Source of the DNA: Paragorgia papillata
Taxonomy: Eukaryota > Cnidaria > Anthozoa > Scleralcyonacea > Coralliidae
Direction: 5' to 3'
NCBI GenBank assembly: GCA_035771165.1
Contig: JAWNZC010000311.1
Location: 286,001 to 350,000, forward strand
DNA: 64,000 nt
The notes under the pieces are model-generated. The model saw only the letters and a list, made by a program, of their open reading frames with translations, was not told the origin of the DNA and searched no databases. Shown here piece by piece: positions 31,363 through 64,000 of the stretch. Each line of letters begins with the position of its first letter. The first letter of the stretch is position 1. The position numbers and the translations under genes were made by a program.

Positions 31363-31363
<1 letters not shown>

Positions 31364-31420
<57 letters not shown>

Positions 31421-31434: not shown

Positions 31435-31584
31435 AAACATTATTTTAAGAGGGTAACACGTGACAGTAAAGAAGAATACTGATGAACTAGTGGCCCTCTA
31501 GCAATGTTTACAGTTTATAAATTTCAAATGTTAAAAATAATTAATATACAAAAATTACTATACAAAACATTTACTAAGTAGAAC

Positions 31585-45994: not shown

Positions 45995-46051
<57 letters not shown>

Positions 46052-46066
46052 GGTTGTTGTTGTTGA
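45995..46066. repeat. (TTG)n microsatellite
   Basis: The LINE 3' tail, followed by a short TA run at 46,067-46,081. Confidence 0.95.
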
Positions 46067-46607: not shown

Positions 46608-46760
46608 AACAATTAAACAACTCGTTCTCGTTATCTAATTGTTAAATAGACCCGAAGCGAAGGGAGTTCATGAAATATTACCCTGAAGTATGATATATCT
46701 CAAGAGGGATATATTATGACGAGGGGTAATACCTCGTCGAATTTCCCGAGCGAAGGGTCT
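46608..46760. repeat. Palindromic repeat, ~150 bp
   Basis: An outer small hairpin AACAATTA...TAATTGTT and an inner palindrome AGACCC...GGGTCT with (T/A)TCGCT-type arms. Same style as the other hairpin MITEs. Confidence 0.7.
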
Positions 46761-47455
46761 ACGAATGATATATTATAGCGAAAGATCTTTACCGAAAAAC
46801 TTAAACATTTAAAAAAACTTTAGTTCAATTATAGTCCAACCTTGTTCCCAGGGCCTTTTTTGAAATTGTGCGGGCGGCAAATGGCCCTGGCATGTGCTGG
46901 TGAATTCTATGTTTTCATTGGTTGATCGGTTTTCTAAAGAAATTGTTCCGGACAAATAATTATGCATGACTTTGGGGATTTGGCAAGTTGTCATCAGTTA
47001 GCGGCGACGCATAGTAATCTTTTTAGCAACGAGTATATAGCGTATAATATGGAAATATCAACTCCAAATAAGATTGCTGCTCGGAGTTCAATTTGTCGGC
47101 TTTGCGGTTATTCATACGAAGGTCGTCATGTGTTGCGAGTAGTATAGAAGTCGGCGGTATCAGGTAAAAATATATGGTAACATTAAAGCATTGGGCAATT
47201 TTGTGCCAAATGGCTTGTATATAGTCCAGAGTGAACTATGCATCAGCTTTTAAGCTTAGTGCTGTCCACACGCGGTATTCAGTTTGGTTCACCTCACCAC
47301 AATACACAGTTAGTTGTGTCACCGCCGGTAATAATCTTTGCCACAATACTATGGTCACATAGAATAGTATAACAAATTATAGTTACAATATTCTGTGTCT
47401 GTTTGTTTGTTTAAGCGGGTTCGTGAATAAATTATAGTTACTTGTTGTTAGGTGA
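46761..47455. other. Gene-free stretch
   Basis: No recognisable ORF or structure. Confidence 0.5.
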
Positions 47456-47459
47456 AATG

Positions 47460-47590
47460 TTGACATTCCATTTGGCGTAAGCAACCACCAGTTTCTTAGC
47501 GCTGGAATTTTTTTTTTAAAACTTTTCAAAATATTTTTTAGATTTGTAAAGCGTCAGTTGCTAACGCCAAATGGAGTGTTGTTTACTCAG
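47460..47590. repeat. Imperfect inverted repeat
   Basis: CATTTGGCGTAAGCAAC and GTTGCTAACGCCAAATG face each other across ~80 bp. Confidence 0.65.
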
Positions 47591-47599
47591 GATGTTTGT

Positions 47600-49670
47600 T
47601 TTAGCGAGAGTTAGTTACGCGTTCGTGAATAACTAATTAGATTACAACACAGTCTGCGTTTTGTAGTGTCCGTATGCGTAACTTCTTATTCCGTCCTCAA
47701 GTAGGCATCGTTTATCATCAAAGCAGAGGAGGTACGAAGCTCTTCCCACAATGCAGTGCGTTTAGTTTTCATCCCTTAGCTCGGAGCGTGCCAGTCGATG
47801 ATCAAAGTATAGACATTTTCGTTGGCGCTGTTTCGATTGAAAAACTGCGGTTCAAAAGGTAAGATCTTTATATGATATTAATAAGATATTCCAAAATATG
47901 TTTCTCTGGTTTGTTTTGTCGTAGCGTACAGGTTTCGGCTCAATAACCAATGTTATGTTTTATGCTTTTACGGGTCACTGAACTTGGCCGAAAAGTGGCG
48001 AGTGATTATATGTACGTATTTGACGTTATATAGAAGCAACAAGAACCCTAATTAGCTTATTATAACAAGCAGGAAATTATCTTTATCGCTTCCTTTAATC
48101 AACACTAATTCTGGCAATTCCTTGTCATGATGAGCTCTGTTTTCTGTGCTTAAGCTTTTACGCAATAAACCAGTCAGATACCGATTGGAATAATTATGGC
48201 AATGTGCGTTAGCACATGCCGGTTTATTAATTTTTGTAATCAATAACATAATTATTAATATAACAAATTATTAAGAAAAGTAATTAACAGTTCGCACAGA
48301 AAAGGTGGGGGTAATACAAACGCCCACTATACTAAGAAACTAATATACATGTAAAAGAAAATTGCGTCAAGAAAACGGGGAGGAGGGTGGGTAAAAACTT
48401 GATTTCAGCTAGAGACTCTCTAATCCTGCTGTAGCCAACGTGCAGAGCAGAATGAACCAATCTCGCATTCCACACCAGATAAATACCGCGAACTCCTATC
48501 CGTTTTCCCGCGCATTACATTCATGTGATCACAAACATTCCGGGGAAATTACCCATGTGATCCCTGACACATTTATCTACTTTTATCTATTTATAAATTT
48601 TAAGTGCAGGAAGCAATAAAATCTTTATTGGTATGCCAATAATTCCTTTCTGTGGGTATAAAAACATTCCTTGTTGCTCCAGGAACTAAAGAACTGTTTA
48701 CTGTTGAAAATCACCTAAATTTTCAATTTTCTGAAAATCGTAAGAGCATAAGCTACGTTAAATTGGCTAGAAAAAGTGGCCTTTTGAACGTGAAATTTGT
48801 GTAGATAATATTTGAAGTCTTGTACTTTGTCATTATTGTCATTTGGCACTCTCTAGGAGTATATTAGTAACGTAATATTGGTTTCTTCACAAGCACTATT
48901 TTCAGTCGCTGATTATGACGCGTTTAGTTACCTCAAACAATTCAAACGTATTTATCTTAATATTTGACAAACCTCGAAAAAAATTTGCCTCGTTTAAACA
49001 TGAAATAATTCGCTTTCTTTTGGTAGGAAAATTTCTCTTGTTGCTCCAAAATTGTCGAGATGAGCGTTGTTTTGATTTCGCGCTTTGTTTTCTTTGATTC
49101 CGTAGCTCATTTGAAAGCCCATTTCATAATTTAGCTCTATTGTATTAAACTAGGACTTTTACATGTACTGATGGTGTATTTTTTTTATACATAGGAATAA
49201 TAAAATCCTGTTGTTTTAATTCAATCAATTATGTGGTGCCAACTTTTGTACTTTGGGCTATCTAGCTATTTCTTCATTCAACAAATTATGTGTGCATGCT
49301 GTCCATAGATCGCTATAGGAGTTGTAATTGTTCTTAAGTTCATCCTGTGACAGCAAGTTGTCTTGTGCATGAATTTTCACTCCACATTACCCCCATGACA
49401 CACCATTTGTTGTTGTGAAATACAGAGATATACTGAGTAATCGTCCTTATTTCATGTTTACAGGTTCATGCTCAATTTTTGTTCCTACAGAAAGTTTTCT
49501 GGAAACCTTCTTCATGAAAAACATTTCATACCAGGTCCCAACACATGCCGGTTTCACAAATTAAAGAGAAGGGGAAAGTGGATATTAAAGTTGCACAACA
49601 GAATTGCCTCGGTCACTTGAGTTTTATTTTGGGATCTTTTACATTACTTTAAAATACATTTTAAAGCTGT
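47600..49670. other. Gene-free stretch left of the second Polinton
   Basis: Only short, domain-free ORFs. Confidence 0.55.
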
Positions 49671-49853
49671 GTAAGTAGTAGGATTATGCCGATTCTGGCT
49701 CATTTTTGGTTGTCATCCGCTGACCGCCTTTTAACCAACAATTCGCGGGCTCATTTTTAGAACCACTTTAGAAAACCGCTTAGAACCGGTTCCCATTTTA
49801 AGTAAAAAAATATAAATTTTTTTAAATTTATATTTTCCCGGGGATTTCCCTTA

Positions 49854-49907
49854 TTCCGAAAAAGTGAGCCAGTAATTATTTCCGGAAAAGTGAGCCAGTA
49901 ATTATTT
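49854..49907. repeat. Two direct 26-bp repeats near the Polinton left end
   Basis: The unit contains AAAAGTGAGCCAGTAATTAT and lies just before the PolB stop, within the presumed terminal region. Confidence 0.8.
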
Positions 49908-49915
49908 TGTTTTGC

Positions 49916-52009
49916 TCAGTCGCCTTTGGCTCGGTGCCCGTATGCCAAAGTTTGGATTTTGTTTTCGCAAATGATTCGCTTGTCGTCGTCTGCCGAAAGT
50001 GCTATTTTGTTTATGTGTTCGGTGTAAATTTCGTGTTGTCTTGATCTGAAAGTGTTCATGCCTTTTAGAATGTTTTTCTTTGTGAACAAACATTTTTTGT
50101 AATCTTGGAATGTTATTTCATTTTTTACCACACCTTTCTTAACTCCTTTACATTTTTTCTCTTCCTTGTTTTCATCCGCCATTTTGTAAGCGTATAACTT
50201 ACTTCTTAGTCCAACAAATTCGGAAATTTGCTTACCTCCCGTTTCGTCTTTCATCATCCCAATTACCTTTTTGTTAATTCCGGTTGGAATTTTACTAGAA
50301 TGGTTTTTAGGGAAATTACTTGTGTCAAACTTAGAGCTAACATCGTTGCTAATATCTTTGTAAAAATCTCCGGTTTTAATTTCATAACATAATGAGTCTG
50401 TATCTGTAAATAACAAACTAGCTTTGTCGCCGTATTTTGACTTAATATAATTGTAGTGGAAATCATACATTAAAGTTTTGCTAAGATCTAAAATGCTCAT
50501 CCCTAAGTATATTGGCTTATTAAGTTTAACGGAGGTTTTTTTCATGTGAACGGCAACAAGGTTTTCTGAAAATATGTTTACACCGTTGAAGTTAGCTTTA
50601 CTAGCTAGTTTTTCTAACTGGTTACCGTTTGTGGTTAGTCTTACGTCTATTCTGTTCCTAACGTTTTCCATCGTTTTTCCAAAAACGGAGTTATTCATTA
50701 ATTTGAAAAAATCCTTTTCGAAGTCTGTTGTTGCGGCTGTTCTTAAATCCGTGTTTAACTTAATGTATTTTGCTAACCAGGCTTTTTCAACAAATGTAAT
50801 TCCCCGATGAATTTTAGTTAATTTTAAACCTAAACTTAAACATTGCTTTAATGCTTCGTGGTGAATTACGTATTTTTCTTTGTTATTAAGATTTGGTATT
50901 AATTTTTTAACTTTGTTGACTACTATTTGTTCCGCAGCTAATGGGTATTCATTATGAAAATTATGTAGTTCGTGCGGATATTCTAAGTCTACTTCTAAAA
51001 TGCATGACGTTTTTTCCCAGTTGTTAAGGTCTTTTTTAGAAATCCACTTAAAATTTTTAACTGGAAGTGGTTTACTCATCGCCCAGCCGTAAAGGTTGTT
51101 GGCGTCTAAATACGGAATAAATATGTTTTCTTCTTCCTGGTTGTAGTTTTCCATATACTTATTATTAGCTTTGGCGTATCTTTTGGTAATAGTGGAAATT
51201 CCCCCTCGGATTCCTTTTTCTACCATTAAATACATGTCTGGATCCGAAATAAGATCCAGTTCTACTCCGGTTAACTTTAAAGCCGCATCCCAAGCTAATC
51301 CTGGAGAAGTATAGTACCATAATGGATCTAATCCATAATTTAGTTTACAAACTTTTCTAAAGTTTTCCATAACATCCGCTAATAACAGGACATCGGTTTT
51401 TAAATACAAGTTGTGGTAATCTCTCATTGTTTTACATTCAAAGGATTTCCACACATTTTGCGCGTGTTCGTAATCTTTGTTAGAAATATGTGTATCGTTA
51501 AGTTTACTGTAAAACTGGTTTTTTGTTGGAAGTTTGTCGTAACTTAACTTATCAAATTCTGACATAAATTCATAAGGAAAAACCCCTTTTTTCTTTAACA
51601 ATGATATTTGTTCCTTATTAAAAGATTTTTCCATTTCCTTGGTTGTTGTTATGAACTGGTCTTTTCCAAGATTTTTAACCAGGTTGTCTAGTGAGCTTAA
51701 CGTAAACTTAAGGGAGTCAAGAAATCGTAGTTCGTATTTGAGTTCCCAGGTTTTTCCTTTGTTGTTTGTTTGTGTTTCCATTACAAATTCTTTTGAAAAA
51801 CTTATGTACTTTTCATCTGTTTTGGGAATGCAGTTAATTTTTCCCTCAGAAAGTCCAAGACTTTTGACAAACAAATGGGAGTCGTATCCTTCCAAATTAT
51901 GGAAAAGAACCGGAATGAAACTAGGTTTTTTCATTTTAAGGTTACACATGTTGTTTGGCAGCGCCTCGGTATTTTCCGGTAAGATGGCAGTGATCTCTAA
52001 CTCGGTCAT
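49916..52009 (-). pseudogene. polB: Protein-primed DNA polymerase B, exonuclease II/III and polymerase domains
   Basis: 697 residues, the C-terminal two thirds of the polymerase. Visible are exonuclease II (FHNLEGYDSHLF), exonuclease III (YHNLYLKTDVLLLADV), the region PLWYYTSPGLAWDAALK, polymerase motif A (YLDANNLYGWAM), motif B (KLMNNSVFGKTMEN) and motif C (LFTDTDSLCYE). The normal C-terminus ends shortly before the element's left end. The enzyme would copy the element from protein-capped termini. All catalytic residues seen are kept. A frameshift near 51,960 separates it from the upstream part, so the gene as written is broken unless this is an assembly error. Confidence 0.9.
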
Positions 52010-52250
52010 CGCCTAATCTTTTTTTGCAAGCACAGCAGGTTTTAGCGGATTTAAAAGCTTCTTCTTTGTTTTTACTCATAACAATGGGTTTGTTAACTTT
52101 TGTTATTTCGTAAATTTTTCGCATTTCCTGTTCCACGGATTCTACAAACTTTTTTCCAATGTCTTCTCCTTCTTTTTCCATTGTGTAAAGTACGGTTTTG
52201 GTTTTGTAAACATTTTCGTCAGTGCATTTTACCGTGTAACAGAAACCACT
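51942..52250 (-). pseudogene. polB: PolB middle segment with zinc-binding CxxC/HxH block
   Basis: About 100 codons between the two frameshifts (near 52,255 and 51,960). It carries CCACKKRL followed by RDHCHLTGKYRGAA, a Cys/His block found in this position in related element-encoded PolB proteins. It belongs to the same gene as its neighbours. Confidence 0.8.
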
Positions 52251-53781
52251 TGGGTTGTGTTTTTTGGTATGCTGTTGTATGACTTACGTTGTTGTCTTTC
52301 TGCACGGTTTCAATGGGAAGTATAAAACTTTCGAAATCTGCGTAAATTACAAACGGCACGTCCGTTGTTTTGTGGTATTGTTTGAAATAAACTTTGTCTT
52401 CTTCTTTTGGATATTCTTGTCTTTGGAAATCATGGGTATTACAGATTTCTTTGTGAAAGTCTAGTAAAATTTGGTTACCAAAGCCGTTAAGGCAACGGAT
52501 GCAAATGTGTGAATGATGACCGTGTTTACTGAGTTGAGGACCAATAAGCCTACTTAGACTTTTGATAACACTGTAGTGGTTGTCGTACAAAAACAGGTTT
52601 ATACTGTCTTCGTCTTCATTTTGACTAATTCTTAGTGGATATATTTTTTTAATTTCGTCGTCATAACTAAGAACATTTACGCTAAGTTTGTTTGCTTTTT
52701 CAAACTTGTGAATATCCTTAATTGCTGTTGGAAACACCGTTTCATTCCAGTTAAGTTTTTTTGCTTGTAATTTTAATAACTTAGTTACCCTTTCACCATT
52801 TTTTTCTGCTGGGTTGAGTGCTCTTGTTATGGACCATTTAAAACACATGTTATCATCGTTTTTTATGTTGGTGATTGCTTTTTTTCCTGTTAGTCCTTTT
52901 GGAAGAGGTTTGTAGCTTTTACCCTTTAATGGTTTAAACTTTGTAATAAAAATATCTAGTTTGTCAACATAAAGTAATCTCCAGCCGGATCCTTCTTTTT
53001 GGAACTTGGATAAGTTTTCCAACATTTTTTCTCTCATTTGGGTGTAACTATTTGTGGTGTCTTCTTCTGAAATTATGGTGTGGGTCCAACTTCTGAAATG
53101 GTGGGTGTTTACTACATCGACAGTTTTAGAATTTACTAGCGTACAAATAAGAACGCAGTTTACCTTTTTTCCAACGCTATCCGTATTATTAATTAGGTTT
53201 TCAACTGCGGGTCTGGAGTCATTTAAAAAGACTGCTGGGTCTTTGTAATTAAAGCCGGGAATAACCCACATTTCCGTATTTCTTCTGTAAGCGCTTGTGA
53301 TTAACATTGGTCTGGTAAGTTGAAGTCTTCTTGCTTCCGGGCTATAAATTTTTGAGAGCTTTGTTTGTATTGTATCGGCTGACACATTTTTACCAAATAA
53401 TCCCATTATGCTTTCCTTTAGGGTTTTAAAAGAATATGATACATTATCTTTAATAGTTTTAGGAACATGGTTGGTTAACCATTCGTTCCAGGTTTTCATT
53501 CTTTCATCGGCTTTTGTGTCCTGGTAATCAGGAACATACTTTGTTGGTTTTAATGGAGGAGGTAATTTTGGGACAGTTTTTTTGTTAAATAGACCCATTA
53601 TATTTTCCTTTATGGTGCTAAAAGCGGATGCAACATTTTTTTAAACTTTTTTAGGCGCGTATTTAAACCAGTCATTCCATGATTCAGTTTTAACTTTTTT
53701 AAAAGTAGGAACATACTTTGTTGGTTCTAATAGCGGAGTGGAATCTGAAACATTTGAGTTTAATAAACTTTGATTGTTCAT
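52219..53781 (-). pseudogene. polB: PolB N-terminal region and exonuclease I
   Basis: The probable start is ATG at 53,781, directly after the conserved promoter-like block. An in-frame TAA at 53,641-53,643 stops it after 46 residues; the frame then continues from 53,598 or upstream. The N-terminus carries two copies of a ~60-residue module (PTKYVP, then W-N-x-W, then MGLF). Further on are a globular region, a Cys/His pair (HGHHSHICIRCL) and exonuclease I (FVIYADFESF). The 3' end of this frame is a frameshift near 52,255. Confidence 0.8.
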
Positions 53782-53835
53782 ATCTCTCTTTATTATATAC
53801 TCCAAAAAAAAAGTTTCTGATTTCCTATAAGGTAA
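53779..53835 (-). promoter_or_regulatory. Promoter/leader block upstream of PolB, duplicated at 63.13 kb
   Basis: About 55 bp, read on the minus strand: TCAGAAACTTTTTTTTTGG, then AGTATATAATAAAGAGAGAT just before the ATG. Almost the same sequence precedes the acidic ORF at 63,135. A TATA-like core (TATATAATAA) lies ~15 bp before the start. Confidence 0.6.
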
Positions 53836-53919
53836 GTTATAGGAAATTTAAAAAAGGAATGTATAAAAATGGCAGATGCATCAAAGCGTGGAAATTTATG
53901 GATATTTATTTGGGTGGGG

Positions 53920-54237
53920 CTATTTAGTAACAGAGTACAAACTCCCCTTTATTAATACAGTTTTTTCTTTTATGAATTTGTAGATGTAATTTGGATTTAC
54001 GTTGAGGTATTTTGCTGCTTTGTAAATACTTGGGAATTCTATGGTTTCATCTGAGACTTTGTTTTTGAAAATAATACGGACCGGTTTTCTAATTTTATCT
54101 TTGTTATGTGTGTCAAATGCTAGGTTTCTTACTAATGGAATACCAAGTTTTTCACACAAGGTTTGGCTATTCATTTTTGAAAAGTATTTGATTCCTCTTT
54201 CTTTTCCCATTTGTCTTAGTTCTCTTATTGTGTACAT
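53920..54237 (-). CDS. Small protein with NUMOD1-like DNA-binding motif
   Basis: 105 residues. The C-terminal half (FPSIYKAAKYLNVNPNYIYKFI) resembles NUMOD1-type helix-turn-helix modules found beside homing endonucleases. The N-terminal half (IRELRQMGKERGIKYFSKM) is SAP-like. No nuclease domain is present. It may be a regulatory DNA-binding protein or the remnant of a larger endonuclease. It lies between PolB and the acidic ORF on the same strand. Confidence 0.55.
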   Translation of the reverse strand: MYTIRELRQMGKERGIKYFSKMNSQTLCEKLGIPLVRNLAFDTHNKDKIRKPVRIIFKNKVSDETIEFPSIYKAAKYLNVNPNYIYKFIKEKTVLIKGSLYSVTK

Positions 54238-54254
54238 TGTTATTTATTATAGTA

Positions 54255-54349
54255 TCTTTTTATTTTTCTTTATACCAATTTTTTTTAATATTTTTTTAAT
54301 ATTTTTTTAAATATTTTTTTAATATTTTTTTAAATTTTTTTTAATTTTT
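54255..54349. repeat. T-rich tandem tract
   Basis: Repeated TTTTTTTAATA-like units just after the 247-residue ORF on the minus strand, where a transcript end would be expected. Confidence 0.7.
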
Positions 54350-55093
54350 TTATACGTTGTTTGTTGCTAGTATTCCACCAAGTTCTCTTAGTTCTTCATC
54401 TGTAAGTTGTGTTCTGTCAACCGCGTTATTGTTAATTGCTATTTCATCTTGAATGCTGTTAATAATATTTGCTCTAATTCCGTTAACATTTGGTGTACCA
54501 GGAAGGCTACCAACAATTTCCTCAATGGAACCATTTGCGGTTTTACTATGTTCGTAACGCGCTTTTTCCATAAGATGGGTGTATTCTTGTACAGCGGCTT
54601 TTGCTTTTTCACTCCCACTTAAAACAAAGTCATTTCCTTTTTTTACAACAACTCTTGTTCCATCGTAAAGAATTCCATTTACCTTTCCAGTTTTTTCACT
54701 TATTGAAATTAAACTTTTGTTTATTAGTTTTCTTGAGGCGGGTCCATCTTTCATTACAACCTCTTGATTAAAATTGTTTTTTAAAAATGTTTTTCGTGTT
54801 CTTGTAATTCTTTGTTTTTCAGCGGTTTCCCACCGTTTTCGTCTGTTCTTCAAGGTGTTTTCTTCTACATTTTCTTCTTCAGTTGTGTTTACATCCCTTG
54901 CTTTTAACCACGCATCCGGATCAAACGGATCTAAATTTGGTCTTCCTTCCAGATCAATGTTTTCATCGTAGTCATCGTCATCATAACCACCAAAGTCGTC
55001 ATAATCATTGTCTATGAAGCTTGTTTCCTCTTCGCCACGCATTCGCTCCGCTTCATTGTTATCGTTAAAAGTGTCAAATTCAAATCCTTCCAT
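54350..55093 (-). CDS. Acidic N-terminal protein of unknown function
   Basis: 247 residues. The first ~80 are very acidic (NDYDDFGGYDDDDYDEN). A basic stretch (KNRRKRWETAEKQRITRTRKT) follows, then a mixed C-terminal domain. No family recognised. The start ATG sits in ACTAAATAAAATGG, matching the element's start context. It is intact and lies between the integrase and the NUMOD1-like ORF, all on the minus strand. Confidence 0.75.
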   Translation of the reverse strand: MEGFEFDTFNDNNEAERMRGEEETSFIDNDYDDFGGYDDDDYDENIDLEGRPNLDPFDPDAWLKARDVNTTEEENVEENTLKNRRKRWETAEKQRITRTRKTFLKNNFNQEVVMKDGPASRKLINKSLISISEKTGKVNGILYDGTRVVVKKGNDFVLSGSEKAKAAVQEYTHLMEKARYEHSKTANGSIEEIVGSLPGTPNVNGIRANIINSIQDEIAINNNAVDRTQLTDEELRELGGILATNNV

Positions 55094-55114
55094 TTTATTT
55101 AGTTCGACTACGTC

Positions 55115-56080
55115 TTATTTTTGTATAACTCGGACTAACTCTTCATCGTAAAACTTACCAATAACATTTTCACCTGAGTTGTCCTCAATGTTGTACATGA
55201 CAGGATTACCACGAAACACAGCTGTTATTTTAAAAACTTCACTTGTAAAGTTTGGATCATACCCCTTTGCAAAATTTTTTTTGTATTTGTATATTCTTAC
55301 ATGGTCGCCAACCTTAAATTTGGGTGTTGGAAATTTTGTCGGTGGTAAACCGTATAAAGTTAAAAATACCTCACCCTGATTATTTGAATTAACACTATTA
55401 GGTTTTCTTTTGATGGTTGAGTGAAATGTGTTGTTATAACTTTTGGTGAGTTTGTCTAAAACATCTGTCCAAGTTTTGGTTTGTTTAAATGTAAAATATT
55501 TCCACATTCTTGTTTTTAAGGTTCTGTTGAATCTTTCTACAATAGCTGCTTTACGTTCTGAAAGTGTTGAAAAATACTCTATGTTATGAGATTTTAAAAG
55601 GGTTTTTACTCCAACATTGTAAAATTCATTACCATTATCAAACTGAACAACCTCGGGATATTTTTTAAAGTGATGTTTAAACTCCTCAAGCATTTTACCA
55701 ACACCTTCCACCATACTTTCTGTATTTTTTCTGTGCACAGGAACGGTAAAAGCAAACCTACTTAAAATTTCAACTCCTGTTAAAATCCAGTTAAATCTTT
55801 TGTTTACAGAACTAAACTTAGCCATATCCACTAAGTCCATTTGAAGCTGGTCGGCTAAATTTTTAACAAAGGTTCTTTGCGTTTTACGTGGTTTTCTTAG
55901 CGGTTTATGTAATGTGTATGTACTTTGCGAAGATAACCACTCCTTAACTAATTTTCTTGTAACTCCTTTTACATTTTCTTCAACCGCCTTTTGGTAAAGC
56001 TTTTCCGCACTTTGGTAACCAGAAATAGGATTGTAGTAAATATCTCTTAATTCAAGGTCAAGTATTAATTTAGTTGACAT
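55115..56080 (-). CDS. int: Retroviral-type (RVE) integrase of the Polinton
   Basis: 321 residues from the ATG at 56,080, chosen over the one at 56,101 because it follows the TTTAAATAAAATG context used throughout the element. The catalytic core has QMDLVDMAKF (Asp), VVQFDNGNEFYN (Asp) and ERKAAIVERFNRTLK (Glu), the DDE triad of retroviral and Polinton integrases. A C-terminal SH3/chromo-like segment (KFKVGDHVRIYKYKK) follows. It would insert the element and create the 6-bp duplication. Intact. Confidence 0.9.
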   Translation of the reverse strand: MSTKLILDLELRDIYYNPISGYQSAEKLYQKAVEENVKGVTRKLVKEWLSSQSTYTLHKPLRKPRKTQRTFVKNLADQLQMDLVDMAKFSSVNKRFNWILTGVEILSRFAFTVPVHRKNTESMVEGVGKMLEEFKHHFKKYPEVVQFDNGNEFYNVGVKTLLKSHNIEYFSTLSERKAAIVERFNRTLKTRMWKYFTFKQTKTWTDVLDKLTKSYNNTFHSTIKRKPNSVNSNNQGEVFLTLYGLPPTKFPTPKFKVGDHVRIYKYKKNFAKGYDPNFTSEVFKITAVFRGNPVMYNIEDNSGENVIGKFYDEELVRVIQK

Positions 56081-56102
56081 TTTATTTAAATTAGCTTTCA
56101 TG

Positions 56103-56261
56103 TTTTAGTTTTGAATACACCCGTAGCGAGTTAATACGGGTGTTCGCTTTTTCTAAATGTTTGTTTCTTAATTTAAGGTCAAGTAATAATATGTTTTGAA
56201 TACAGTTAAGCTAAATTAGCTTTGGTGTTCGCTTTTTCTAAATGTTTCATAAGTAAATAAA
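56103..56261. promoter_or_regulatory. Divergent intergenic region with a partial direct repeat
   Basis: Between the integrase and the 497-residue ORF. GTTTTGAATACA and GTGTTCGCTTTTTCTAAATG each occur twice. A hairpin, ACACCCGTA...TACGGGTGT, lies in the first copy. Probable two-way promoter region. Confidence 0.5.
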
Positions 56262-57755
56262 ATGAACGCAAGAGAAATTAAAGCATTAAAGGATTATTAT
56301 GGTGAAAACTACCAAAAAGTTATTAAAAATAGCGAAGTGGAAAAAGAAAAACTTAAAGAAAAGTTTTTAACTGAATATCCAAATGCAGATGTAAAAAGAT
56401 TTGAATTCGATGTTTCATTTAATCAAGATGGAACGGTTGGCGATAAATCCATATTTTTTCAAGATCCAAATAACAGTATGTCTTCTTTCGATATAACTTC
56501 AGAAGCTTTTTTAAGTGACCCTGATTGGGTAAATTATTTATACTGGCCAAAAAAGTGGACAGTCACTCAAAATTTACCTGATTTTGTGCTTAACGAAAAA
56601 TTCTCATTAAATTTAAATGTTATCTCTATTTTTGTAACTGAAAAGAAAAAGTTTACCGCACATTTTGAAGAACTAGATACAACTTATGTAAATCCTGTTG
56701 TTGAGGAAGGTGAAGCGGAAAAGAAACCATATGCAAAAGAGGAATTTGACTACCTGGGTAATCCATATTTTACTGCAATAGCAGCCACTTATGTAATTAC
56801 AAATTTGTGTGGAATTTCAGCAGAACATCTTTTAAACAAAATTCCAAGAGCTAGCTCAAATATTATTACAAGTATTGTTCAGTATCATTTCGCATATCAT
56901 TTAAGAAGGTTTTTAAGAGAACCCACAAAACTTAAAAAATATACAACCGGAAAACATCTAAATTTTCTACAAGAACATACACCAGTTAGAAAAATTTGGA
57001 GAACACAATACAGTAGCACAACCATGAAACTAGAAGATTTTCAAAAACAGCAAGACAACCTTGGTTATATCACAAAAAATATGAGATGTGTAAAAGATCA
57101 CGCTAATTATATTAATTACGGGGCAAACATAAAATATGAAAAATATATGGGAGGAAAACCAAAAAAAGATAATGACTTTTTACTTTTTGTTCCAAAAACT
57201 TCAAAAGGAATAACTCCTTTAGGTCAAAAACTATTTCAACAATCCATAGAAAGTTATGTTTACTGCATTTTAGGTGCACAAGCAAAAACCAGATGGAGTA
57301 TCATAGAACAAGGAGCAAAAAGCACGCAAACACAAGATGTTTTTTTAAAACTCGTGAAAGATACGGTGGCACAAGATGATACAACTGTTGCCATTTCAAA
57401 TATGCGAACAGCTATTAAAAGTACCAATGTAATTCTAAATTTTGCTATTTCACCGGGTTTAATTCTTATTCCATCGGATATGAGAATCCTTATTAATCCT
57501 ATTAGTGGTTACAACAACACACTAACACTAGCAACAGGTAAGATGACATTTGGTAACAATAAAAATATTAACAAAGTGGTTAATATTTCACAAAATAGGG
57601 TAAAACAGCAATTGCCAGTAACCCCACAGCAAAGCGTAACAACTCAATTACCAGCGAACAAAATACCTTATAACCAAGATTCACCGCTTGTGTTACCATT
57701 AGTTTTCGGTGTTTCCCTCGCTGGTACTTTCCTGGTGTTTAACAAGTTTTTTTAA
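56262..57755 (+). CDS. 497-residue protein with C-terminal membrane anchor
   Basis: No family recognised with confidence. The N-terminus is lysine-rich and helical. The middle has a hydrophobic ITNLCGISAEHLL stretch and several conserved-looking aromatic segments. The C-terminus is a transmembrane helix (LVLPLVFGVSLAGTFLVF) ending two residues before the stop. Size and anchor suggest a virion or membrane-associated protein. It starts in AGTAAATAAAATGAACG, shares a divergent promoter region with the integrase, and is intact. Confidence 0.75.
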   Translation: MNAREIKALKDYYGENYQKVIKNSEVEKEKLKEKFLTEYPNADVKRFEFDVSFNQDGTVGDKSIFFQDPNNSMSSFDITSEAFLSDPDWVNYLYWPKKWTVTQNLPDFVLNEKFSLNLNVISIFVTEKKKFTAHFEELDTTYVNPVVEEGEAEKKPYAKEEFDYLGNPYFTAIAATYVITNLCGISAEHLLNKIPRASSNIITSIVQYHFAYHLRRFLREPTKLKKYTTGKHLNFLQEHTPVRKIWRTQYSSTTMKLEDFQKQQDNLGYITKNMRCVKDHANYINYGANIKYEKYMGGKPKKDNDFLLFVPKTSKGITPLGQKLFQQSIESYVYCILGAQAKTRWSIIEQGAKSTQTQDVFLKLVKDTVAQDDTTVAISNMRTAIKSTNVILNFAISPGLILIPSDMRILINPISGYNNTLTLATGKMTFGNNKNINKVVNISQNRVKQQLPVTPQQSVTTQLPANKIPYNQDSPLVLPLVFGVSLAGTFLVFNKFF

Positions 57756-57764
57756 AAAGTAGGG

Positions 57765-58280
57765 TTAACCATACTTTTTGTACATCCAGCTAAGACCCAT
57801 TAATAGACAATCCGCCATATCGTCCGCTTTTTTAGCATTAAGCAAAAGTAAAGTTTCCTGATCTCCACGTTGTTCCATTATTTTTCTAATGTATTGTACA
57901 ACCCACTTTTTACGTGATCTGTAATCAGCAAGCTTCACCCCAAACACACTTGTTTTAAATTTTGGGGAGTATAACTCCAGTTCAACGTTAGGAAATAACA
58001 AAGAAACTAAGGTCCAAACGTGTTGCATTAACCGGACACAGTTTGTGTTTTTAGGAATTTGTTTTTCTATTAAAACATTAGTAACCGCAAATCTTTTAAA
58101 AATATCCTGAATAATACCAGAAACACTATTAAAAACTGCGGTAGAAACTTCTTTTCTTCCATCTTCTGCTAAACAAGAATTTTTTAGTTCTTTCACACAA
58201 CCGGAAAGTGGATGTTTCGTAAACTCTTCCACACTGTAACAGAAATTTTTTATTCCAATATCTATGGATAATATTAACAT
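57765..58280 (-). CDS. Holliday-junction resolvase, poxvirus A22/RuvC-like
   Basis: 171 residues. The RNase H-like fold is marked by ILSIDIGIKNF (Asp7), VLIEKQ (Glu72), the KKWVVQYIR helix and KKADDMADCLLMG (Asp154 and Asp157). This is the four-acid site of RuvC/A22-type resolvases, which cut branched DNA formed during replication or recombination. Poxviruses and giant viruses encode relatives; it is not part of the usual Polinton core. It starts in ATAAAATAAAGATG. Its upstream side is the 54-bp repeat array. Intact. Confidence 0.85.
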   Translation of the reverse strand: MLILSIDIGIKNFCYSVEEFTKHPLSGCVKELKNSCLAEDGRKEVSTAVFNSVSGIIQDIFKRFAVTNVLIEKQIPKNTNCVRLMQHVWTLVSLLFPNVELELYSPKFKTSVFGVKLADYRSRKKWVVQYIRKIMEQRGDQETLLLLNAKKADDMADCLLMGLSWMYKKYG

Positions 58281-58306
58281 CTTTATTTTATAACTTTTTA
58301 AAAAAT

Positions 58307-58996
58307 AACTAGCTATTGCACGTTTTTAAACAAATTATAGCAAAAAATAGCTAGCTGTATAACTAGCTATTGCACGTTTTTAAACAAATTATAGCAAAAA
58401 ATAGCTAGCTGTATAACTAGCTATTGCGTGTTTTTAAACAAATTATAGCAAAAAATAGCTAGCTGTATAACTAGCTATTGCGTGTTTTTAAACAAATTAT
58501 AGCAAAAAATAGCTAGCTGTATAACTAGCTATTGCACGTTTTTAAACAAATTATAGCAAAAAATAGCTAGCTGTATAACTAGCTATTGCGTGTTTTTAAA
58601 CAAATTATAGCAAAAAATAGCTAGCTGTATAACTAGCTATTGCACGTTTTTAAACAAATTATAGCAAAAAATAGCTAGCTGTATAACTAGCTATTGCGTG
58701 TTTTTAAACAAATTATAGCAAAAAATAGCTAGCTGTATAACTAGCTATTGCACGTTTTTAAACAAATTATAGCAAAAAATAGCTAGCTGTATAACTAGCT
58801 ATTGCACGTTTTTAAACAAATTATAGCAAAAAATAGCTAGCTGTATAACTAGCTATTGCGTGTTTTTAAACAAATTATAGCAAAAAATAGCTAGCTGTAT
58901 AACTAGCTATTGCACGTTTTTAAACAAATTATAGCAAAAAATAGCTAGCTGTATAACTAGCTATTGCACGTTTTTAAACAAATTATAGCAAAATTA
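58307..58996. repeat. Tandem array: 12 full and one partial 54-bp units
   Basis: Each unit begins AACTAGCTATTGC and ends AATAGCTAGCTGTAT. Adjacent units create AATAGCTAG-N8-CTAGCTATT inverted repeats at every junction. Units come in two versions, GCACGT (eight) and GCGTGT (five), mixed along the array. It lies between the divergent resolvase and 118-residue ORFs. A replication origin, recombination site or bidirectional regulatory region would all fit. Confidence 0.95.
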
Positions 58997-59014
58997 CAGC
59001 AAACTAATTAATAA

Positions 59015-59371
59015 ATGAGTGAACAACAAACTATTACAAAAACTGAAGACTTAAAAAGGGTAAAAAATCCAAAAAGAGTTGCACAAGGATATAGACTAGC
59101 TGAACTAAGTAAAAACGCAAAAGCAAGAAAAAAAGAATCTCAACAACAACAAAAATATGATGAAGAAAGCTTAATACAATTACCTGGATTATCAACATCT
59201 TTAACCATAGTTGGTGTTGTAACAGGTGTAATAGGAACTTACATAGCATGGCAACAATACCAACAAACACCCACAGAAGAAAAACAAGTAGTAAAAACTA
59301 ATAAATCTCCAACTGCATCACCAAAACCAACAAAAGTGGTGTTTAACAATCTTGATAACGATGACATTTAA
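59015..59371 (+). CDS. Small membrane protein, 118 residues
   Basis: A basic N-terminal half (KNPKRVAQGYRLAELSKNAK), then one membrane segment (TSLTIVGVVTGVIGTYIAW), then a polar tail. Start context TTAATAAATGAG. Probably a virion membrane or DNA-condensing component by its place before the capsid gene; no family recognised. Confidence 0.7.
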   Translation: MSEQQTITKTEDLKRVKNPKRVAQGYRLAELSKNAKARKKESQQQQKYDEESLIQLPGLSTSLTIVGVVTGVIGTYIAWQQYQQTPTEEKQVVKTNKSPTASPKPTKVVFNNLDNDDI

Positions 59372-59449
59372 CTTTTTTTAAATAAAATTACATAGCAAAA
59401 ATGTTATGTAATTTTTTACTTTTTTTTTTACTTTTTTTTTACTATAATA

Positions 59450-60658
59450 ATGAATAAGGAAAGACAAACTAAGTTAAAACCAGGTTATAAACGTTTACAA
59501 AAAAGTGAAATAACCGGTGAACGAACAAGACATGTAATAACATTTAATCCCAACAAAGCCAATCCTGGTGAAGAAATTTACATTCAAATTCCAAAACTAA
59601 AACCTGGTACATCGCTTGTACCAGACAAAATGTCATTAAATTTTGACTTTAAAAATGCAAATACCAAGTCGTGGTTTAACAACAACCTAGCAAAACAACT
59701 CCAAAAGCAATTAAAAATTAAATTTGCAGGTGAAATTATATACGACAACTCAGGAGAAAGTTTACTTAGAACTTACGAAGATTTGTGGTTGGACGCAGAT
59801 GTTCGTGCAAATATGATTGAAGATGGTGTTGCAACTGAAAACCAACGTAAAGTTGTGTCAAAATCTGATGATGCTTCATCAGATGCATATGCCTCATTAT
59901 ACGGAACAAAACAGAGAATTCAGTTAGGAAAAATCTTAATGGACCATGGCTTGTACGCCCCATACAACATGGCAAATGATTTACAGTACATTATCACTCT
60001 CCCCCAAGCCACTGAAATCATGCAGGCCCAAAGTGGACAGGCAGTAGCTGGTTACAGCTTGGAAAACATGGAGTTGGAATACGAAACCATTTTTAATGCT
60101 GATTTGGTTCGAGAGGTAGAAAGTGGTTACAACGCTGGAAGATCCCTTAGTTTCGAACACGTCACCCTCTTTAAAACTGTGGAGTGGGGTAAGTCAACAA
60201 CTCTCATTAATGAAACCATTAACCTTCCAAGAAAAAGTATGAAGGCTGTTGTTATGCTCTTCACCAAGAAAACCCGTGGTCAGTCCGAAGAGTATGTTTT
60301 TCCAAACATTGAAAATGTTAAAATTACTATAGAAGGCATCCCTAACAGTGTTTACTCACAGGGATTGGTTAAAAGAAGACTATTTGAAGAAACCGAAAGA
60401 CTATTTAGACAAAATACCAGAGCAGTTACGGCAACCAACTTCTTTGTTGGAGACATGTTCGCCCTGGTAATCGACCTCAGAGCTATTGATGACAACGAAC
60501 TATATGGTCATGGAACCAAGCTCATGTCAACCCAGTCTGGAATCATGCTTGAAATAACCAAAAAAGCAACAGCTGTAGATCTTAACTGCAATATTTTCAT
60601 CATCTCAGATGGTGTTCTAAAGGTTCAAGCTGGAGAATTCCGAGGTGTAAGCTACTAA
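59450..60658 (+). CDS. Major capsid protein candidate (double jelly-roll type)
   Basis: 402 residues, predominantly beta-rich. Segments such as LVPDKMSLNFDFKN, IKFAGEIIYDNSGES, TYEDLWLDADVRANMI and NFFVGDMFALVIDLRAI resemble capsid proteins of Polinton/adintovirus-type elements. The call also rests on position directly before the packaging ATPase and the penton-like gene. It would form hexagonal capsomers. Intact, with a start in TACTATAATAATG. The fold cannot be proven by reading alone. Confidence 0.75.
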   Translation: MNKERQTKLKPGYKRLQKSEITGERTRHVITFNPNKANPGEEIYIQIPKLKPGTSLVPDKMSLNFDFKNANTKSWFNNNLAKQLQKQLKIKFAGEIIYDNSGESLLRTYEDLWLDADVRANMIEDGVATENQRKVVSKSDDASSDAYASLYGTKQRIQLGKILMDHGLYAPYNMANDLQYIITLPQATEIMQAQSGQAVAGYSLENMELEYETIFNADLVREVESGYNAGRSLSFEHVTLFKTVEWGKSTTLINETINLPRKSMKAVVMLFTKKTRGQSEEYVFPNIENVKITIEGIPNSVYSQGLVKRRLFEETERLFRQNTRAVTATNFFVGDMFALVIDLRAIDDNELYGHGTKLMSTQSGIMLEITKKATAVDLNCNIFIISDGVLKVQAGEFRGVSY

Positions 60659-60676
60659 ACAAAGCAAGGTAAATAA

Positions 60677-61273
60677 ATGACACCCTTTAACATGATAATA
60701 GTTGGAATGACTGGATGTGGTAAAACTCATTACCTACTAAAAATGCTAGAAGAAAAACATAAAAAAAATTTTGAAAATATATTCTTAATTTGCCCAACGT
60801 TTGAGTGGAATAAAACTTATTTAAACTGGACTCACTTACATGATCCAAATTTCTTTGTTATTCCTTGTGATCAGGATCAAACAGATGAGCTTTTAAAATT
60901 TGTTGTAAACTTTTGTAAAGGTAGTCCATCACTAATTATACTTGATGATTGTGCATCAGGACAGTCAGTAAAAAACCGAACCAGTGAGTTGGTAAAACTT
61001 GGGTTCGGAGCAAGACACATGCATATTAGTACAATAGTAATCACACAACAACTTACGAGTATAGCAAAACCATTTCGAGAAAATATATCCAAGCTAGTGT
61101 CTTTTTACAATCCAAACAGAAAAGATATGCAAGTTATTTTGGATGACTATTTAGACGTTGGTAAGGAAGAAGAAAAAAAAATTAAAGAAACATTAAAAGA
61201 AAAAAAATACAGTAGATTAGAAATTAATTTAATACATCCTTACAACCATGAAATAGTAACAACAGAAAATTAA
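60677..61273 (+). CDS. Genome-packaging ATPase (A32/FtsK-HerA-like)
   Basis: 198 residues. Walker A is VGMTGCGKTHYL at the N-terminus, Walker B LIILDDCA near residue 87, and a sensor-like STIVITQQ near 120. This is the compact form typical of viruses with double-jelly-roll capsids. It would drive DNA into the capsid. It lies 18 bp after the capsid gene with start context GGTAAATAAATGAC. Intact, and clearly a different lineage from the broken ATPase at 24.8 kb (CTQSGKT type). Confidence 0.9.
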   Translation: MTPFNMIIVGMTGCGKTHYLLKMLEEKHKKNFENIFLICPTFEWNKTYLNWTHLHDPNFFVIPCDQDQTDELLKFVVNFCKGSPSLIILDDCASGQSVKNRTSELVKLGFGARHMHISTIVITQQLTSIAKPFRENISKLVSFYNPNRKDMQVILDDYLDVGKEEEKKIKETLKEKKYSRLEINLIHPYNHEIVTTEN

Positions 61274-61320
61274 TACCGTACAAATCATATGTTAAAAAAC
61301 ATATGATTTTTTTAAAATAA
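61274..61320 (+). terminator. Short hairpin after the packaging ATPase
   Basis: CATATG...AAAACATATG with ATCATATGTT-type arms followed by TTTTTT. It could end the transcript, though no termination mechanism is known for this element. Confidence 0.35.
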
Positions 61321-61959
61321 ATGAGTCTTTTAAGAATTTTTATGAAAAAAAACAATGAACAAGAAACCATTATTAAATTTGATGAACCCTTAGTTATTGA
61401 AAACAATACAATGACCGTAAAGTGTGCAAGTGTGTTTTGGGATTTTAATAACGTACCACATTTTGTTAATGCACTTCATGGAAAAACCAAAGTAAGATTT
61501 GAATCTGGGTATTGGACAGCTAGTATGATTATTGAAAAACTTAAGGAAAACAACGTAAAAGCAAAGTTACTTCACCATTCATCAAAAATAGAAATTTTAC
61601 CAACAGACGACCTTTCCATGTTGAATTTAGCACCATTGCTAGGTTTTTCCAAGGAAAGAGGAAGAATACCAAAAGGAAGAACCATAGTTTCAGATTTTCC
61701 TGTTAATGTTAACCTTGGTTTAAAGTATATTAACATTGAGTGTAATGCTGTTAACAAAAACGAAACATCATTTCAAGGTCAGCGGGATGGTTCCATCGCA
61801 ATTCTTCCAATTACCACAACACAATCCCTAAAGGGGACCGTTACACACTATGATAATATCAATAGTGAAACCAAATTAAACAACGGAACCTACAACGAAC
61901 TAAAGTTTTCAACAAGTCATGAGATTGGTGATATACTATTAGAAATAACAATAAAATAA
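61321..61959 (+). CDS. Minor capsid (penton-like) protein candidate
   Basis: 212 residues. The C-terminal half (LKYINIECNAVNKNE, then GSIAILPITTTQSLKG, then FSTSHEIGDILLEI) follows the strand pattern I associate with single-jelly-roll penton proteins of Polintons and adenovirus-related viruses. Its position after capsid and ATPase supports this. It would close the five-fold vertices. Start context TTAAAATAAATGAG; intact. Confidence 0.65.
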   Translation: MSLLRIFMKKNNEQETIIKFDEPLVIENNTMTVKCASVFWDFNNVPHFVNALHGKTKVRFESGYWTASMIIEKLKENNVKAKLLHHSSKIEILPTDDLSMLNLAPLLGFSKERGRIPKGRTIVSDFPVNVNLGLKYINIECNAVNKNETSFQGQRDGSIAILPITTTQSLKGTVTHYDNINSETKLNNGTYNELKFSTSHEIGDILLEITIK

Positions 61960-61992
61960 TGTTAAAAAAGTGTAAAAAATTTGTACTAATAA

Positions 61993-62220
61993 ATGGGTGA
62001 TACTAAAAATGAAGTAATTCAAGATTTATACAATGCTGCATTAGTTACCGCAGGAGCCGTAGCAGTAAGTATGGTTTCCAAGCGTTTAGCAGGTCAACCT
62101 TTAGCTGCACCAGCTAGTTTAAAGGAAGCCGCAAAGTTAGCTGTTGCTGTTGCAGTTGGTGGTTTTTTAGTTAAAAAAGGCCAATCCGCTGGGTACATTC
62201 CCAAAAATTTAAAGACCTAA
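61993..62220 (+). CDS. Small Ala/Val-rich virion-type protein, 75 residues
   Basis: Two hydrophobic stretches (LVTAGAVAVSMVS and KLAVAVAVGGFLV) with interspersed lysines. It resembles small hydrophobic ORFs downstream of penton genes in related elements; the role is unknown. Start context ACTAATAAATGGG, 33 bp after the penton-like gene. Confidence 0.65.
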   Translation: MGDTKNEVIQDLYNAALVTAGAVAVSMVSKRLAGQPLAAPASLKEAAKLAVAVAVGGFLVKKGQSAGYIPKNLKT

Positions 62221-62247
62221 GTAAAGCTTTAGCGAAACCATAAATAA

Positions 62248-62646
62248 ATGGTATCAATGGTTGTAGGAGGATTATTTAACGCAGTTGCCTTTGCAGGAGC
62301 CGGTTATTTGTTCTCAACATTTAACAAAACAGATTACCAAGAAGAAACCAAAAGACACAATCTTGCAACGGAAAAACTTAACAAAGCAAAAGAAAATTTT
62401 TATGAAAAGGAAACAGCACGAAAAGATAGAAAAAAAGAACTACAAGAGGAACTCTACAATGCAAAAAGTGACATAAAAGAAACAAACAAGGCATTAGTAG
62501 AATTAAAAAGAATCCGTGACGAACAAAATATTCCACCACCGCGGTTAGAAGACTTTTACCAACCATCGGATGAGATGAAAAAATATCAAATCATGGCAAT
62601 GGGATTAGTTGGTGGAGGTGGCGGGTGGTTATTACATGTATTGTAA
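62248..62646 (+). CDS. Membrane/coiled-coil protein, 132 residues
   Basis: An N-terminal membrane segment (VVGGLFNAVAFAGAGYLF), a charged coiled coil (~residues 30-95, rich in Lys/Glu), a proline hinge (IPPPRLEDF) and a C-terminal glycine-rich hydrophobic segment. Likely a structural or membrane-bridging protein. Start context CATAAATAAATGG. Last plus-strand gene of the cluster. Confidence 0.7.
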   Translation: MVSMVVGGLFNAVAFAGAGYLFSTFNKTDYQEETKRHNLATEKLNKAKENFYEKETARKDRKKELQEELYNAKSDIKETNKALVELKRIRDEQNIPPPRLEDFYQPSDEMKKYQIMAMGLVGGGGGWLLHVL

Positions 62647-62691
62647 ATTTTAAATTCCTATTCAAAAAGAATAGGAAATTACAACCAAATT
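62647..62691. terminator. Inverted repeat between convergent genes
   Basis: ATTCCTATTC...GAATAGGAA hairpin between the plus-strand cluster and the minus-strand acidic ORF; a plausible shared transcript end. Confidence 0.45.
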
Positions 62692-63135
62692 TTATAGTTC
62701 ACTAACAGTTCCACAACTTTCTATAAAAAATTTCTCTTCGTCTAATTGATCGGAAGAATTTAACCAATCTTCTAAGTCACTGTCTAATTCTTCGTCATTT
62801 TCATCATCCAAAATGGCGTACGCTCCGTTATCAGGATCCCATAACGCACGGTCTCCAAACCTTTCAAAGATTTCACCTAATGAACTAAACCAAAATGTGT
62901 TTTCTTCACAAAAGTCAATAACCATGTATCCATCCCTGCTTCTGTATTGTAGTTCTTCATCACAAACTTCACCCCAGCTTTCATCAATAAAATTTATTTC
63001 AAAATCATTCATTAATCCTTCAAATTCTTCTGTTTCATCTAAATAATCATCATAGTCTTCATCACATTCATCGGATTCGGTTTCATAACTTTCGTCTATT
63101 TCAAAATCTAGTACGTTATTGTAAACAGTGTTCAT
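62692..63135 (-). CDS. Highly acidic protein, 147 residues
   Basis: Asp/Glu-rich throughout (ESDECDEDYDDYLDETEEF near the N-terminus) with a more ordered centre (YMVIDFCEENTFWFSSLGEI). No family recognised. A DNA mimic or histone-binding protein is possible from composition only. It starts directly after the promoter block shared with PolB. Confidence 0.65.
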   Translation of the reverse strand: MNTVYNNVLDFEIDESYETESDECDEDYDDYLDETEEFEGLMNDFEINFIDESWGEVCDEELQYRSRDGYMVIDFCEENTFWFSSLGEIFERFGDRALWDPDNGAYAILDDENDEELDSDLEDWLNSSDQLDEEKFFIESCGTVSEL

Positions 63136-63187
63136 CTCTCTTTATTATATACTCCAAAAAAAAAGTTTCTGATTTTCTATAAGGTGA
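63133..63187 (-). promoter_or_regulatory. Promoter/leader block shared with PolB
   Basis: The same TTTTTTTTTGGAGTATATAA block and AATAAAGAGAGATGAAC start region as at 53,779-53,835, differing by two inserted bases near the ATG and a few changes upstream. Confidence 0.6.
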
Positions 63188-63188
63188 G

Positions 63189-63395
63189 TTAAGCATAGTC
63201 AACAAGGTAATCCCAGTATTCAAGACAGTAAAATTCGTTAAAATTTTCTCGGTCGTATTTACTGTACATCAACCAAAGACGGTATCCTTCGTCGCTGCCG
63301 TCTGTAAGTTTAAAAATAAGTTTACCAATGTCAAACCAGGTTTTACTCCTAAATTCGCATTTTGTTGCAAAATTTAAATTTTCATTAACTAACAT
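63189..63395 (-). CDS. Small protein, 68 residues, unknown
   Basis: Rich in aromatic residues and Asp/Glu (TWFDIGKLIFKL, EFYCLEYWDYLVDYA). The start follows CTATAAATAAAGAGGT. Spacing and strand fit a minus-strand cluster with its neighbours. Confidence 0.55.
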   Translation of the reverse strand: MLVNENLNFATKCEFRSKTWFDIGKLIFKLTDGSDEGYRLWLMYSKYDRENFNEFYCLEYWDYLVDYA

Positions 63396-63405
63396 ACCTC
63401 TTTAT

Positions 63406-64000
63406 TTATAGTTTTCCTTGACGGTTAAGGGAATCAACTATATCAAAACAATCCGCGTTGCATAGTTCGTTAAAAAGTTTCTTTTTTTCTACTTTTGGTT
63501 TTAGTTTTTTCCGTTGTTCAGCAGTTACCTTAAAATACCTTGGTGTACAACCAGCGTTGTCAAATGATCTTAAGTAATTAGTTGTTTTTTCTAGCCAAAG
63601 TGGGTCGTTGTTAAGGTAAGGTTTAATGTTTGTTGCTCTTGGGTTTGGTTTTTCTTTTTCATCGCTGTTATGCCAGCTAATAATGCTGTTAATATCGCAG
63701 TTAAACCTAAAACATTGATGTTTCCATGTTGAGGTAAAAATGTTTCTTAATTCTCTGTCTTTAATCCGCTTACAAATTTCTGTAAGTGCTTGTTCGTCTT
63801 TTCCTTCCGACATGGTATACACCGCGGAACAAAGGTTGTTAAGTGCTGTGTTGTTTCGCATTCTTCGGATTGAAAGTTTAGGGATAATGGTGTTGTACAC
63901 AAAGTTTCTTACGTCTTCGTCTTCTACTATTTGGTTTTTACTTGGATTGTACGTTGTTCCACCGTCTTCGTATATCATTGGCACAAGTAATCTTATTGCG
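63406..64000 (-). CDS. Unknown protein, at least 192 residues, 5' end outside window
   Basis: The frame is open to the window edge, so the start is not defined; an internal Met codon exists a few codons inside. Features: a basic C-terminal region (RKKLKPKVEKKKLFNEL), scattered Cys, and a helical centre (LTEICKRIKDRELRNIF). No family recognised. Fourth minus-strand gene of the right-hand cluster or beyond. Confidence 0.6.
   Translation of the reverse strand, partial: AIRLLVPMIYEDGGTTYNPSKNQIVEDEDVRNFVYNTIIPKLSIRRMRNNTALNNLCSAVYTMSEGKDEQALTEICKRIKDRELRNIFTSTWKHQCFRFNCDINSIISWHNSDEKEKPNPRATNIKPYLNNDPLWLEKTTNYLRSFDNAGCTPRYFKVTAEQRKKLKPKVEKKKLFNELCNADCFDIVDSLNRQGKL

Follow-up and report, generated by a model that had tools for sequence, protein, structure and literature searches.

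Does a Holliday-junction resolvase gene that borders a tandem array of palindromes form a dedicated module with it, or are the two merely neighbors? The question arises from the right end of a 64,000-nucleotide stretch of Paragorgia papillata DNA (the window), where the initial annotation had placed such an enzyme and its possible substrate side by side inside a Polinton-like element. We somewhat favor the answer that the resolvase and the array are adjacent without forming a dedicated module, the former being a generic resolvase and the latter an amplified palindromic spacer with a possible regulatory role.

The element and its genes

The Polinton-like element spans roughly 49.8 kb to past 64.0 kb and is cut by the right edge of the window. 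From left to right, the polymerase pieces, a 105-aa ORF, a 247-aa ORF and the integrase lie on the minus strand, followed by a plus-strand 497-aa ORF, the minus-strand resolvase, the array, a plus-strand block of 118-aa, capsid, ATPase, 212-, 75- and 132-aa ORFs, and finally minus-strand ORFs up to the edge (Table 1).

Table 1 Features of the Polinton-like element and its gene gaps, in window coordinates.
Feature	Position	Strand	Remarks
Palindrome	49803..49836		3′ of polymerase gene
Family-B DNA polymerase gene, broken	49916..53598	-	Pieces 52219-53598, 51942-52283 and 49916-52012
Palindrome	53820..53847		3′ of 105-aa gene; overlaps 58-bp direct repeat 53782-53839
105-aa ORF	53920-54237	-	NUMOD1 E 6e-5, 23.6 bits against cut-off of 22.8, barely passing
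rve-type integrase	55115..56101	-	rve E 3.1e-8, 34.2 bits (cut-off 32.6); DLVDM, FDNGNEF, ERFNRT
Palindrome ACACCCGTA-N9-TACGGGTGT	56117..56143		Other divergent gap, integrase / 497-aa gene
497-aa ORF	56262..57755	+	Convergent with resolvase
Palindrome	57754..57779		Spans convergent stops of 497-aa gene and resolvase
A22/RuvC-type Holliday-junction resolvase, 171 aa	57765..58280	-	Open ORF; start context TATAAAATAAAG-ATG
Tandem array, 54-bp units	58305..58993		12.8 copies, 97% match (TRF and unit tables)
First of 12 junction palindromes, AATAGCTAG-N8-CTAGCTATT	58346..58371		Recurs every 54 bp up to 58940-58965
118-aa ORF, function not assigned	59015..59371	+	First gene right of array; start AATAAATG
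Palindrome	59384..59415		Interval between 118-aa gene and capsid gene
Major capsid protein, 402 aa	59450..60658	+	Double jelly-roll by structure comparison (AF2 model and Foldseek)
A32-type packaging ATPase, 198 aa	60677..61273	+	Pox_A32 E 2.3e-15; Walker-type motifs
Palindrome	61282..61309		3′ of ATPase gene
Palindrome	62655..62677		Between convergent 132-aa and 147-aa genes

The ORF left of the array was confirmed at the level of sequence as a Pox_A22-type resolvase, a predicted junction cutter. Its residues 1-167 matched positions 1-141 of the 143 in the Pox_A22 profile PF04848 (E 4.9e-14, 53.1 bits, cut-off 22), Ydc2-catalyt was matched as well (E 3.1e-9, 37.3 bits, cut-off 23), and a sequence search of the PDB returned chain 6p7b, described as 'Holliday junction resolvase', at E 3.6e-4. 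Four acidic catalytic residues are expected in resolvases of this class, and D7, E72, D153, D154 and D157 are present here, with chain 6p7b having N at the position aligned to D157. A single-sequence structure model, intended as a check of the RNase H fold, failed (mean pLDDT 39.3). No relatives of the resolvase were retrieved from viral contig, genome contig or phage collections, and none of 25 candidates from the protein database matched at E 1e-3 or at E 10, which may reflect rarity or too few shared exact words and does not imply absence.

The neighboring integrase, ATPase, capsid and polymerase motifs support the assignment of the element, from its predicted proteins, as Polinton-like. 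Both the resolvase and the Polinton-like setting proposed for it in the initial annotation were thereby borne out. The three polymerase pieces lie in three different frames and the gene is therefore broken in two places; motifs A, B and C, all in the last piece (49916-52012), fit family-B patterns, and the gene is probably a family-B polymerase. Beyond these motifs it was recognized only by a resemblance of the middle piece to Endonuclease_7 below the cut-off (E 8.3e-4), and the large piece had no match in Pfam, NCBIfam or PDB searches. Searches with the ATPase, a polymerase piece and the integrase found no relatives in the viral contig collection.

The capsid protein had no Pfam or PDB sequence match, nor DNA-level relatives in viral and genome contig collections. 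A protein search returned 238 homologues with E of at most 1e-3. The best 120 of the 238 are 46-64% identical, and among these 120 listed matches the organism named was Paramuricea clavata, an octocoral. An AlphaFold2 model (pLDDT 82.6), built on an alignment of 38 sequences comprising the window protein and 37 of the 120 listed homologues, was compared by Foldseek with the PDB, where NCLDV capsids led the matches (8hif of Singapore grouper iridovirus at E 1.1e-17, followed by PBCV-1) and the mavirus capsid stood at rank 39 (E 3.4e-12). In BFVD, the first two rows were unnamed, the named top matches were mostly NCLDV capsids and an Adintovirus 'penton' protein took rank 10. The modeled capsid thus ranks closest to NCLDV capsids, a Foldseek rank being no phylogeny. 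The element is best explained as carrying an NCLDV-flavored gene set, made up of an A22-type resolvase, an A32 ATPase and an NCLDV-like capsid.

Pfam scans of the 118-aa ORF, the 497-aa ORF and the remaining scanned ORFs of the element gave no family above cut-off. The NUMOD1 domain matched by the 105-aa ORF is associated with homing endonucleases. Among 17 proteins and pieces of the element, whose right end lies beyond the window, Pfam detected no cysteine protease, minor capsid (penton) or VLTF2/VLTF3 family. No convincing terminal pair was seen among inverted repeats of at least 20 nt between 47000 and 64000, the element exceeding the window, and neither Rfam at the gathering threshold (46000-64000) nor a PHROGs search with six element proteins gave anything useful. 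A 58-bp direct repeat, 97% identical, occurs at 53782-53839 and 63134-63191, 9.35 kb apart; each copy sits where a minus-strand ORF begins, TATATAATAAAGAGAG preceding the ATG, and we propose that it is a duplicated promoter or a product of gene conversion.

Gene starts and the tandem array

A start motif recurs across the element. Between 49916 and 64000, AATAAA lies in the 14 nt that precede the ATG (whose A can double as the last of the motif) at 11/15 gene starts, compared with 6/447 other ATGs (p 3.5e-15), gene starts being the first ATG of each ORF, chosen without the motif and less certain for small ORFs. When only ORFs of at least 100 aa were considered, the counts were 9/13 and 8/449 (p 6.7e-12). 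The stricter form, AATAA followed by 0-2 A and ATG, marked 7/15 starts and 1/447 other ATGs, the latter being Met8 of the integrase. This Met8 (56080), possibly the true integrase start, is one of the six non-start ATGs with AATAAA, as is the ATG at 63395 (minus strand), codon 3 of a 70-aa stop-to-stop ORF (63189-63401). The motif is missing from the starts of the polymerase, the integrase (first ATG), the capsid and a 190-aa ORF at the window edge. Five gene starts read TAAATG, which is also the poxvirus late promoter core.

As a mere poly(A) signal of the preceding gene, AATAAA would fit the co-directional pairs capsid/ATPase, ATPase/212-aa, 212-aa/75-aa and 75-aa/132-aa; this interpretation was rejected because the motif is also found ahead of integrase Met8 and of the 497-aa and 118-aa genes, each of which has a divergent neighbor upstream. 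A Kozak context was likewise discarded, position -3 in AATAAATG being T, which would not suit it. Virophages have late promoter motifs in common with their helpers, according to the available text of two reports (PMC10945749, PMC6723459). Dependence of the present element on a helper virus is speculation, since no helper was identified.

The array comprises twelve full 54-bp units and one partial unit and fills the divergent resolvase / 118-aa gap, ending 24 bp from the resolvase ATG and 21 bp from the ATG at 59015. It had been described as 13 repeats whose junctions form inverted repeats; the array and its palindromes were recovered, with the palindrome at 12 junctions and not 13. Chance cannot account for such an array. 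Units 1-12 are identical save for a linked two-base AC to GT variant in units 3, 4, 6, 8 and 11, and the array is therefore recent or homogenized. Because the unit was amplified, the 12 junction palindromes count as a single observation, and the palindrome of one unit is mildly unusual: perfect inverted repeats with arms of at least 9 and a loop of 3-12 nt appeared in 113/20000 base shuffles and 103/20000 order-1 Markov units (about 0.5%). The junction-centered unit folds into a hairpin of -7.1 kcal/mol (DNA parameters). No further copies of the unit were found in the window, where the best off-array scores did not exceed those of shuffled queries. The sole variation within the full units, CACG to CGTG, replaces the tetranucleotide by its own reverse complement and resembles a tiny inversion.

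The resolvase has an AATAAA start motif of its own, as has the 118-aa gene. Both motifs lie outside the array, in which AATAAA is absent from both strands, and the array is therefore an upstream spacer of two divergent genes. With both start motifs outside it, a role as core promoter of these neighbors was ruled out. The palindrome was also considered as a virus-wide signal and rejected: six IMG/VR loci with the exact pattern had one copy each, with other loop sequences. A tblastn search of these loci with the resolvase, capsid and ATPase found nothing beyond a 24-aa match (E 0.93). With the array region, blastn gave short matches at the palindrome in L006 (27 bp, 85%, E 0.011) and L003 (30 bp, 80%, E 0.14), with other weak short matches at E 0.48 in L006 and L005.

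Gap palindromes and the explanations weighed

Palindromes are a common feature of the gene gaps of this element. Perfect hairpins with arms of at least 8 and loops of 3-12 formed seven clusters in the gaps against 1.03 expected, and none of 500 dinucleotide shuffles reached seven. The gap set consisted of 17 segments (1526 bp in total, extended by 12 nt apiece, the array being reduced to a single unit) and took in 209 bp between polymerase pieces (0/7 hairpins) and 216 bp left of the polymerase (1/7). Coding sequence was not enriched (4 hairpins over 11735 bp, where 3.18 would be expected on the basis of 100 shuffles). Placement at gene 3′ ends was not significant, with 6/8 hairpins no more than 110 nt from a stop and 5005/20000 random placements matching this. 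Two divergent gaps are in view, integrase / 497-aa and resolvase / 118-aa, each with a palindrome of 9-bp arms. Identical 24-bp direct repeats (56139-56162 and 56224-56247) are also found in the former.

That the array is the substrate of the resolvase, as a cruciform site for concatemer resolution, origin function or recombination, is very unlikely in our estimation, even though the two adjoin, the unit can form the hairpin described above and A22 has a role in concatemer processing in poxviruses. Adjacency is weak evidence here, because only two divergent gaps are in view and the resolvase borders one of them: the array would be expected to border the resolvase with about an even chance if divergent gaps are favored, falling to roughly 1 in 7 should every gap be eligible. 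These two gaps, together with the structure-selective cutting that characterizes Pox_A22-type resolvases, make the substrate interpretation weak; gap palindromes are enriched in general, and a linear replicon would probably not keep the supercoiling that extrudes cruciforms with 9-bp arms and 8-nt loops. The enzyme-substrate module put forward in the initial annotation is accordingly unsupported, the array being one amplified spacer among palindrome-rich gaps.

A different function is conceivable, in which the array is an hr-like element, that is, selected tandem palindromes acting as enhancer and/or origin through a dimeric regulator, with the resolvase a bystander. The hrs of baculoviruses are enhancers with a tandem layout, present as several dispersed arrays of palindromic repeats. 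The available text of PMC6669502 describes them as 30-bp imperfect palindromes of high AT content and postulated origins, and the 54-bp AT-rich intergenic units, each with a 26-bp palindrome, resemble them in layout and in lying outside genes. The array occupies the whole upstream region of two divergent genes, as such an element might, but it is the single array in the visible part of the element, no IE1-like regulator was identified and the other divergent gap has one palindrome. Protein-primed replicons start replication at their termini, and one of this kind would be expected to do so at its ends and not at an internal array. On balance we consider the hr-like interpretation unlikely. In an extension of it, an NCLDV-like helper would express the element, itself a virophage-like virus integrated in an animal-type genome, and the array would serve as an hr-like enhancer or origin, its amplification helping it compete for helper factors. 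The uniform AATAAA/TAAATG-type starts, the gap hairpins, the NCLDV-like capsid, the A32 ATPase and the A22 resolvase point in this direction; we nevertheless give it little credence.

We thus lean towards a generic resolvase beside an amplified spacer. The A22-type enzyme would be one gene of the NCLDV-flavored set of an integrated Polinton-like virus, most likely trimming four-way junctions born of recombination as the linear genome replicates. The array would be a recent, homogenized amplification of one palindromic spacer, like the other gap palindromes, within the common upstream region of two divergent genes and outside both start motifs; if functional, it would most likely be cis-regulatory, as copies of a dimer-binding site, rather than a substrate of the neighboring enzyme. 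On the other side, an array conserved in relatives would point to function, selection on the locus could be what keeps the resolvase ORF open near a broken polymerase gene, and the array sits so snugly between two start motifs that design, more than tolerance, could be at work. The no-function half of this explanation, whose probability is contained in that of the whole and does not add to it, is minisatellite growth after integration, an accident of host replication or repair at a palindrome in a dying copy. Taken singly it is possible rather than probable: the polymerase gene is broken, and the copy may therefore be dead; the identity of the units suggests recent growth; and the window is rich in further tandem repeats (39 rows, with some overlap). 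Decay is slight, however, since the element's other ORFs are open.

Relation to known systems and to other loci in the window

In its near full-length profile match and acidic residues, the enzyme is like the Pox_A22/NCLDV resolvases, from which it differs in that its gene lies in an integrated element of small size, equipped with an rve integrase, instead of in a large virus, its activity being predicted. With Maverick/Polinton elements and adintoviruses the element shares an rve integrase, polymerase-B motifs, a packaging ATPase and a double jelly-roll capsid; it differs in the A22 resolvase, which is not standard there, and in a capsid model that ranks nearest NCLDV capsids in the PDB. The view that a resolvase is no standard Polinton gene is in accord with a network study in which the A22 family is assigned to 'Megavirales' and some Caudovirales (PMC4981718), although some polintons have a resolvase among their NCLDV genes according to the accessible part of PMC12721341. 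Of the two reviews cited there for the latter statement, one, in the text available, mentions resolvases four times, always for NCLDVs or an NCLDV protein cluster (PMC8715426). Resolvase, Holliday and RuvC are not mentioned in the Polinton or PLV papers PMC4642659, PMC12220804, PMC10120064 and PMC8097293, and PMC5718144 names resolvases solely as RNase H-fold enzymes.

A PF04848 resolvase, called uncommon, is present in OmPLV, the polinton-like virus of Oxyrrhis marina, which also resembles the present element in its A32-type ATPase (PF04665), pPolB and major capsid protein and differs in having a tyrosine recombinase, no rve integrase detected by its authors, a helicase-pPolB fusion and a dinoflagellate host; the terms 'tandem repeat' and 'palindrom' are absent from the main text as available (PMC12721341). 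Mriyaviruses are also small viruses with a capsid protein, a packaging ATPase and, in nearly all of them, a conserved A22-homologous RuvC-like resolvase, but their genomes are of 35-45 kb and encode VLTF2 and VLTF3, according to the text available (PMC11253617). No named animal element with both an rve integrase and a resolvase was met in a literature search over partial texts, and an earlier description is possible. Polinton-like elements are seen as bridging transposons, large DNA viruses and virophages. A further link would be supplied by an element that combines an rve integrase with an NCLDV-like capsid, an A22-type resolvase and uniform gene-start signals, and it would become testable whether some animal-genome elements depend on a large-virus helper. 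The array by itself carries little weight unless conserved.

Other mobile or virus-like sequences were seen elsewhere in the window. The ORF at 24721-25248, with a zinc-finger-like stretch at its start, is a weak second A32-type ATPase-like sequence (Pox_A32 E 2e-4, slightly below cut-off) and is possibly a remnant of another viral element. Two minus-strand ORFs at 29986-31439 resemble, by eye, Rep and helicase pieces; one matched REP_ORF2-G2P below cut-off (E 1.3e-3) and the other had no match. Tc1-like transposases lie near the element and, together with the octocoral relatives of the capsid, suggest an animal host; a near-identical pair of transposase ORFs occurs close together in opposite orientation at 38257-39162 (DDE_3, E 2.9e-16) and 39820-40725. 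On the minus strand at 19220-20597, a DDE_Tnp_4 ORF (19220-19576) and a THAP ORF (20040-20597) presumably constitute a Harbinger-like pair.
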